Shown one piece after another: positions 44,833-46,738 of a stretch of 64,000 bases of DNA. Position 1 is the first letter of the stretch. Each line of letters starts with the position of its first letter. The stretch comes from Alphaproteobacteria bacterium. GTDB lineage: Bacteria > Pseudomonadota > Alphaproteobacteria > CACIAM-22H2. The translations under genes were made by a program, and so were the position numbers. The notes beneath the pieces are model-generated. The model did not search any database. It was given only the letters and a program-made list of their open reading frames with translations, and was not told the origin of the DNA. The stretch lies in assembly GCA_017308135.1 (NCBI GenBank), contig JAFKFM010000008.1, positions 62,001 to 126,000 of the forward strand, in the 5' to 3' direction.

Positions 44833-44849
44833 TAGAGCCTATTTCGAGC
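44833..44849 (+). repeat. Left terminal inverted repeat of the MITE-like element
   Basis: TAGAGCCTATTTCGAGC, the exact reverse complement of 45089-45105. The following 17 bases also match the other end at 13 positions. Confidence 0.9.
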
Positions 44850-45088
44850 GAATGAAATCGCCTGCGCCGCTGGGATTTTGCGACGCAGGTAGGAGAAGGG
44901 CGCCGCGCGTAGTGGTTCTACGCGCAAGTCCTTCGACGCCCCTGCGGCGCAAAAGAACGCGGCCCGAATGGGTTGGGTTCCGGCGGGCGCCCGCTTTGTT
45001 GCAGCCCTCGCCGATAGAACCACTATCGGCTTCGGACCGCGCCGCGCGGATCGCACACGCCGGAATCCCAACGCAGGCGGTTCCATCT

Positions 45089-45105
45089 GCTCGAAATAGG
45101 CTCTA
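45089..45105 (-). repeat. Right terminal inverted repeat of the MITE-like element
   Basis: GCTCGAAATAGGCTCTA, the exact reverse complement of 44833-44849. It ends 10 bases upstream of the kinase ATG, so it lies in the ribosome-binding region of that gene. Confidence 0.9.
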
Positions 45106-45115
45106 GCTTTGCGCG

Positions 45116-46738
45116 ATGGAATCTCAGGCGCGCATTTTGCGACTTACCGGCTTGTCCGGGCCGGGGTGGAGCGGGGCGGCTGCGCGGTTCGCCGTCTTCG
45201 TCGCGCTCTATGTCGCGTCCGATTGGATCAGCAATATCGATCCGCAAACGCCGTTCGGCTTCACCTTGTGGAATCCGCCGGCAGCACTGGCGCTGTTCTT
45301 GGGGCTGGTTTGGCGCTGGCGCGCTTTGCCGGCCATCGCGATCTCCGCGGCGCTGTCGGGGATTATGATTCGCGGCTACGCGCTCGACCTGCATTCGGCC
45401 TGGGTGACGCCGGCGGTGCTGTCCTTCGGCTATGCGGCGCTGGGCAACGCGCTCGCTTCGCGCCGCGACGCCGCCGCCCCGTTCGCCGAGCCGATGTCGG
45501 CACTCGCCTTCATGCTGCTGGCGATTTTCGGGGCGGGCGCCATCGCGGTCTTGCATGTCGGCGTGTTCGCAGCACTCGGCTTTCTCGATCCGTCGCTGCT
45601 GCTCGCCCTGTCGACGCGATCGTGGATCGGCGACGCGACCGGCATCGCGGTCATGCTGCCCGTGCTGGTGCAGTTCGGCGCCGTGCGCGCGGAGGAGGGC
45701 TGGCGCGATATCGCGACGGCCGATACGTTCGGCGCGATCGCGGCGGCGGCCACACTCGCGGGCATGGCAATATTGGGACCGGGAGCGACGACCAATCTCG
45801 CCTATCTGGTCATTCTGCCGGTCGTCTGGGTCGCGGTGCGGCGCGGCTTGTCGGCGACGCTCGCCACGCTGTTCGCGATCCAATGCGCGATCATTCTGTT
45901 CATCGTGCAGGACGAAGCGGCCGACACGGCGTTCTCGGAATTCCAGGTGCTGATCGTCGTCGTCGCGATGACGGGCCTGATCCTGGGCACGGCGGTCGGG
46001 CATATCCGGCGCTCCGCCGACGATCTGGCGCGCGCGCGCGCCGAGGGCGATCGTTTGGCGCGGTTGACGGCGGTCGGCGCGCTCGGCTCGGCCATCGCGC
46101 ATGAATTGAGCCAGCCGCTTTTCGCGATCCGCACGGCCAGCCACGTGTTGATGCGCGGGCTGGAGCGCGACGGCGGAACGGGCGAAATGCTGCGCGCCGC
46201 GCGCACGATCGAAAGTCAGATCGAGCAGGCGAGTGCCCGCATTCGCGCCTTGCGCGCCGAGTTCCAAAGTGCCGGTCCGATGCCCAGCGTTTTCGATCTG
46301 GTCGTCGCGGCGCGTCAGGCGGCGCGCATCGTCGATGGCGGCGCGGCCATGGCGCGCGGCCAATTGACGGTCGAGGATTCGCCGCCGGTGCGCGTGCGCG
46401 CCGACCGCGCGCATGTCGCCTATATCCTCGACAATCTGTTCCGCAACGCGCTGGCGGCGATCCGCGCGCGCGGGGCCGGCGGGCGCGTGCGCGTCGTGTT
46501 CGGCGCCGCCGATGACATCGTTCGAGTCGAAGTCGTCGATAACGGTGTGGGCATTTCCGACGATCTCGCCGGGCGGTTGTTCGAACCGATGGTCACCGGC
46601 CGCCACGACGGCGTGGGGCTGGGCTTGTTCATCGGCCGCACGCTCGCCGAACTCAACGACGGCGCCTTGTCGCACCGGGCGACGAATGGCGGCGGCGCTA
46701 CGTTCGTATTGGAACTTCCCGCGGGTGCAAACGCATGA
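45116..46738 (+). CDS. MASE1-domain sensor histidine kinase
   Basis: A 540-residue kinase. The N-terminal 290 residues form a MASE1-type membrane sensor with about eight hydrophobic segments, including the pattern LWNPPAALALFLGLVWRWRALPAI. The dimer helix has phospho-acceptor His329 in AIAHELSQPL. ATP-binding motifs are an N box (LDNLFRNAL), DNGVGI and GVGLGLFI. The start codon is 10 bases after the MITE-like element, without a clear Shine-Dalgarno sequence. The response regulator gene overlaps by four bases. The signal is unknown. Confidence 0.88.
   Translation: MESQARILRLTGLSGPGWSGAAARFAVFVALYVASDWISNIDPQTPFGFTLWNPPAALALFLGLVWRWRALPAIAISAALSGIMIRGYALDLHSAWVTPAVLSFGYAALGNALASRRDAAAPFAEPMSALAFMLLAIFGAGAIAVLHVGVFAALGFLDPSLLLALSTRSWIGDATGIAVMLPVLVQFGAVRAEEGWRDIATADTFGAIAAAATLAGMAILGPGATTNLAYLVILPVVWVAVRRGLSATLATLFAIQCAIILFIVQDEAADTAFSEFQVLIVVVAMTGLILGTAVGHIRRSADDLARARAEGDRLARLTAVGALGSAIAHELSQPLFAIRTASHVLMRGLERDGGTGEMLRAARTIESQIEQASARIRALRAEFQSAGPMPSVFDLVVAARQAARIVDGGAAMARGQLTVEDSPPVRVRADRAHVAYILDNLFRNALAAIRARGAGGRVRVVFGAADDIVRVEVVDNGVGISDDLAGRLFEPMVTGRHDGVGLGLFIGRTLAELNDGALSHRATNGGGATFVLELPAGANA

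Follow-up and report, generated by a model that had tools for sequence, protein, structure and literature searches.

A gene for a MASE1 sensor histidine kinase begins at position 45116 of the window (the whole stretch of 64,000 nucleotides that was analysed), and is followed by a gene for a LuxR-type response regulator. The kinase leader is interrupted by an insertion whose right end, as an earlier note on this DNA had stated, lies 10 bases before the ATG. The earlier note also reported TA at both ends and counted it as part of the element. The TA is present, but comparison with the empty site identifies it as a target duplication, so that the element proper is 269 bp. The features are as follows:

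44833-44834, no strand: left copy of the TA target duplication (a single TA at the empty site in sister genomes G001 and G009)
44835-45103, plus strand: element proper, 269 bp, GAGCC...GGCTC, defined by the empty site (four more copies in the same genome)
44835-44865, plus strand: P1 left arm, the IS630-like terminal inverted repeat (GAGC at 1-4, AATCG at 22-26), from arm pairing and IS630 ends
44866-44963, plus strand: P2, a long hairpin with AGGAG (44891-44895), CAAG (44925-44928), CGACG (44934-44938) and apical loop TGGTT (44913-44917)
44964-44971, plus strand: P3, a mini-hairpin at the centre of the element, from the consensus fold
44972-45072, plus strand: P4, a long hairpin with apical loop AACCA (45018-45022), inverted and weakly related to P2
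45073-45103, plus strand: P1 right arm, the other terminal inverted repeat, from arm pairing and IS630 ends
45104-45105, no strand: right copy of the TA target duplication (same empty site)
45116-46738, plus strand: MASE1 sensor histidine kinase gene (HATPase_c and MASE1 domains), its leader interrupted by the insertion

Most of the earlier structural description was borne out. The perfect inverted 17-nt ends, TAGAGCCTATTTCGAGC, occupy 44833-44849 and 45089-45105; the near-match extension is real, with arms that reach 35 nt and are 89% complementary; and the inner hairpins present complementary apical loops. A search with this end, allowing three mismatches, gave 2 matches against 0.05 expected from shuffles. 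Folded as RNA, the 273 nt including both TA copies give -166.3 kcal/mol (z = -11.9; 0 of 200 shuffles). No transposase ORF lies inside the element, again as reported. With terminal inverted repeats, no coding capacity, and a length below 600 bp, it has the makeup of a MITE.

There is no support for the suggestion that the element provides the kinase promoter or takes its place. A sigma-70-like site was looked for and not found, and where the site is empty, relatives have the same kinase leader and start codon. The insertion therefore separates an existing leader from the kinase gene.

Copies, empty sites, and a class-wide family

The window genome (G000) holds five copies, including that in the window, and the other four are 87-93% identical to it over the matched interior. 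The sister metagenome-assembled genome (MAG) G001 holds about ten. At the window locus, both G001 (flanks 91-93% identical) and G009 (86-89%) are uninterrupted (...GCCTAGCTTTGCGCGATGG), with no element and one TA; the exact empty site in these two genomes reads GCCTAGCT. This is the clean empty site that a comparison of related strains was meant to look for. Ten further insertions were used as queries with the element removed, and for nine of these, all in the genus, the sister site matches across the junction. (The L025 alignment is gapped at the site; for L044 the match stops 8 bases beyond the junction, and this case was left out of the count; and some junctions are blurred by small changes.) The element thus combines multiple copies with empty sites and target duplication, and its copy numbers and insertion sites differ between close relatives. 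The window insertion, just upstream of the sensor-kinase gene, is recent.

One locus is filled in both genomes (L003 in G000, L021 in G001). Flanks and arms agree there, and parts of the L021 interior resemble other G001 copies more than they do L003, a pattern that suggests gene conversion between dispersed copies.

In a set of 87 copies drawn from many genera, 55 are bordered by TA at each end. The consensus target over the 87 copies is YTAR, mostly CTAG; Tenzen and Ohtsubo (1991) reportedly found that IS630 prefers TA within CTAG. The empty sites, the TA duplication with its YTAR preference, and IS630-like ends (including GAATCG at 21-26) agree with the earlier reading of non-autonomous mobile DNA of IS630 type. 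Absence of other copies, or conservation of the site as RNA, had been named as grounds for abandoning that reading; both were examined, and the element was not refuted as mobile.

That reading missed a class-wide family. A covariance model finds members in 35 of 385 sampled alphaproteobacterial genomes and in 30 of 276 genera, often in many copies per genome; most members among the matches listed are full length. (Many copies are entered on both strands in the per-genome listing, and the family-level and order-level searches cover the same 23 genomes.) Lengths cluster at 261-272 bp, with a few longer members. Most inspected members fold as P1 (the arms), P2, the mini-hairpin P3, and P4, and the motifs AGGAG, CAAG, and CGACG recur across genera. 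Among copies within a single genome, the interior is conserved, and the arms have diverged yet still pair.

A pattern scan of named genomes gave matches mostly in the G001 MAG and a Tagaea MAG, with others in Pseudaminobacter and Polyangiaceae. The window element had no match in plasmid, phage, or viral collections, nor had the L067 and L078 elements on plasmids. Two reduced forms were seen: a 103-bp copy with an internal deletion and both arms retained (L028:1501-1603, G010), and a solitary arm, 93% identical to the right arm of the window copy, without core or partner (L024:1501-1530, G001).

Terminal repeats of two transposase families

Most family copies carry IS630-like arms. The ends of the window copy match, at the same offsets, the terminal inverted repeats of the ISRm2011-2-like group of IS630 (TA-GAGC...GGAATCG), and an IS630 from the host's own family (in G017) has the ends TA-GAGCGTGATGAAGTCAGACCGAATCG. 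Plasmid copies of IS630 have TA-GAGC or TA-GAGT in Mesorhizobium, Rhizobium, Sinorhizobium (ISRm2011-2), Agrobacterium, Acetobacter, Martelella, Sphingopyxis, Sphingobium, and others, and most of their left ends have GAATC(G/A) or a variant at 21-26. Among 70 GAG/GAC-type elements, G21 (87-94%), A22 (79-87%), and C25 (96-99%) are conserved. Element and IS630 thus have in common GAGC and GAATC(G/A) at the same offsets, though the full arm is not identical. They also share TA target duplication; IS630 transposition into TA with duplication has been described (PMC2170065). ISRm2011-2-like elements differ in encoding a transposase and in being about 1.05 kb long, and the core of the element was not seen in the one examined fully (L213).

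The enzyme itself was not detected in the window genome. The intact IS630-family element with the same ends that the earlier note anticipated was looked for there and not found, nor was an autonomous element with identical arms. The IS630 transposase domain (PF13358) is absent from G000, G001, and G009, and from 11 of 15 element-bearing genomes in all. The cognate transposase of G000 may have been lost, lie on missing contigs, or be plasmid-borne. Two candidates were set aside: an autonomous partner in G315, where the same arms occur only in complete 270-bp elements; and IS5/IS427, an idea raised by the YTAR target, whose domain PF13340 is absent from G000, G001, and G009.

Not all copies have such arms: 12 of 88 carry IS1380-type ends resembling CCCGCATTTCTCAC. 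The best of these are identical at 14 of 14 positions to annotated IS1380 ends on plasmids of Pseudomonas putida and Stutzerimonas, and also to ends from a Bradyrhizobium plasmid, for which the transposase is unannotated. G078 has an IS1380 transposase (PF13701, E = 1e-155) flanked by related ends, AGCCCGGATTTCTCAC, at a distance of 1.64 kb from each other. In the IS1380 elements of P. putida (pKF715A), Stutzerimonas, and G078, the ends (CTAG-CCCGCATTTCTCAC) are the same as in part of the family; these elements differ from the window copy in encoding a transposase (PF13701), in length (about 1.65 kb), and in end type. A third end type, AGGAGCCTATCTGAG, had no match in plasmids, and the end type in G132 had weak matches only, one of them inside a Nostoc transposase gene.

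Between the arms lies a core of about 205 bp: two long hairpins around the mini-hairpin. A core-only profile, made from IS630-arm copies with the arms removed, recovers 11 of the 12 cores with IS1380 arms (E<=1e-3), as well as all three cores of the third end type; the best decoy among 1760 reached 0.32. The profile links both end groups, so the core is homologous whatever the ends, and one conserved core travels with the ends of two unrelated transposase families. Across Alphaproteobacteria, the core is conserved independently of its ends. The earlier IS630-type MITE reading holds for the window copy, and misses both this separate conservation and the IS1380 ends of some copies.

These results bear on a rival account, an ordinary MITE: an internally deleted IS630 with a passive middle, similar folds in other genomes being kept only by quasi-palindrome correction. 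The IS630-type ends and TA duplication fit such an origin, and template switching, which can keep the arms of a quasi-palindrome paired without selection, could preserve the arm pairing. However, no core was found at either end of the IS630 in L213, core sequence and unpaired motifs are common to 30 genera, the core is shared with IS1380-end copies, and element length is nearly constant (261-272 in most copies). Already weakened by occurrence of the core beyond IS630-end copies, this account is quite improbable.

We instead consider it likely that the window element is a MITE with IS630-type arms, moved in trans, whose separately conserved core travels with the ends of at least two transposase families, IS630 and IS1380. 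It entered a CTAG site, where the TA was duplicated. The outermost arms, about 26-30 bp each, are IS630-type terminal inverted repeats of the ISRm2011-2-like group, and, judging from the ends, the duplication, and the empty sites, an IS630 transposase supplied in trans is the most likely agent of its movement. The core is probably a lasting part of the selfish unit, which has come to carry different ends recognised by transposases.

The arms also display a methylation site. GANTC, the target of CcrM, occurs in 13 of 14 IS630 left ends and in 0 of 13 right ends (L213 and L221-L237); in the 70 GAG/GAC-type copies, counted at arm positions 21-25, it lies in one arm only in 37 and in both arms in 1. 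The window copy has none. The arm contains a conserved mismatch because GANTC sits in one end only. This asymmetry suggests that transposition might be under cell-cycle control, and raises a link between the cell-cycle methylase CcrM and transposition.

Fold of the core

The fold could be a property of RNA or of DNA. Among 2288 arm pairs (26 arm positions in 88 copies), 2096 are Watson-Crick, and the deviations comprise 70 G.T and 63 A.C. Over the whole fold they number 251 G.T and 216 A.C, in an alignment fitted to the plus-strand model. A selected RNA should favour G.U, so the near-equal frequencies of G.T and A.C are read here as a property of the DNA: neither the arms nor the overall counts display the G.U excess over A.C expected of strand-specific pairing. 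From these patterns, the fold looks as though it is maintained in DNA rather than in a strand-specific RNA, either by selection or by template-switch correction of quasi-palindromes.

The contrary view treats the core as a non-coding RNA with a function, or as a regulatory RNA element, that is incidentally mobile and whose transcript is under selection. It can draw on the very stable fold, conserved unpaired motifs, changes kept on both sides in 39 of 105 consensus pairs (16 members), and apical loops complementary above permutation (mean 2.35 vs 1.95). P2 does have more G.T than A.C deviations (84 vs 52), which would be compatible with a plus-strand RNA role, but P4 leans the opposite way (100 vs 118), the arms have no strand bias, and only 40 of 88 copies fold better as the plus strand. 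In addition, no Rfam family matches the fold, and close relatives differ in copy numbers and sites. An RNA function is on balance unlikely.

P2 weakly resembles the reverse complement of P4 (mean z 2.0; the same-strand control gives 0.45), which gives the element an approximate two-fold symmetry. Two inverted AGGAG-tagged hairpins recall a REP/BIME-like element of giant size that a RAYT transposase, a single-strand tyrosine enzyme, would move: the oriented hairpin motif is common to P2 and the reverse complement of P4, and GTAG-tagged REPs with inverted dimers have been described (PMC3733652). However, the TA target duplication and DDE-type ends are at odds with such an enzyme, and REPs measure 20-40 bp (PMC3733652), far from the 269 bp here, making this origin highly improbable.

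For the mobile element with a separately conserved core, the lack of a clear strand preference in pairing suggests that the core acts at the DNA level, through its fold or symmetry, and is read from both directions: perhaps a mobility aid, a host-factor site, or a bidirectional insulator. Conservation is the basis for assigning it any function. One tentative extension, which we rate at somewhat under even chances, makes the folded core itself the selfish unit: a structured DNA satellite, conserved across Alphaproteobacteria, that swaps ends for whichever CTAG- or TA-inserting transposase is present (IS630, IS1380, perhaps others), with the core needed for mobility or host tolerance.

Partial matches in G161 and G378, considered as transposon ends around a gene, proved to be single hairpins or truncated copies. 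Those in G161 are P2 relatives of about 110 bp (L128:8864-8964, L129:8841-8946, and L130:8872-8987), some ending in GCGC adjoining TA; they are possibly a monomer form of the element.

Relation to known repeats

In behaviour the element is a MITE like RUP, ERIC, and NEMIS, set apart by its class-wide core of about 205 bp and by end exchange. RUP of Streptococcus pneumoniae (107 bp; proposed mobiliser IS630-Spn1) is likewise short and non-coding, with IS630-like ends, TA targets, and a stable fold, but it is smaller, and neither a class-wide core nor a second end type is described for it (PMC2229807). ERIC (127 bp) and Correia/NEMIS (about 107-155 bp) share imperfect palindromes, terminal TA, target duplication, and multiple intergenic copies, and give transcripts with long stems (PMC2229807); they form a single long stem-loop in other branches of the bacterial phyla, in contrast to the branched fold here, about 269 bp long, whose ends are exchangeable. 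Among known alphaproteobacterial repeats, those closest by description only are the CIR repeats of Caulobacter and Brucella, which are intergenic, with two-armed folds, terminal TA, and GANTC sites; they differ in size (about 110 bp), and no pairing of 5' and 3' ends is described (PMC2229807). No description of the present family was found in the open-access literature, which is weak evidence of novelty.

The usual view of a MITE is of a degenerate derivative of a single insertion sequence, defined by its termini. In this family it is the middle that persists, and the ends change from one unrelated transposase family to another. Should the core turn out to be required, it would represent a general device, acting in cis, that helps an element to move or to survive once inserted, of a kind not described in any library searched.

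The family also marks recent insertions beside genes, often at stop codons. At 88 loci, a crude ORF caller places 55 of the 98 3' ends of neighbouring genes no more than 10 nt from an element, and the YTAR target often is the stop codon, restored by the element as TAG. Another copy in the window genome (L027:1335-1530, minus strand) has its end at the 5' boundary of a cobalamin riboswitch, and the Rfam match to that riboswitch overlaps the last 30 nt of the element.
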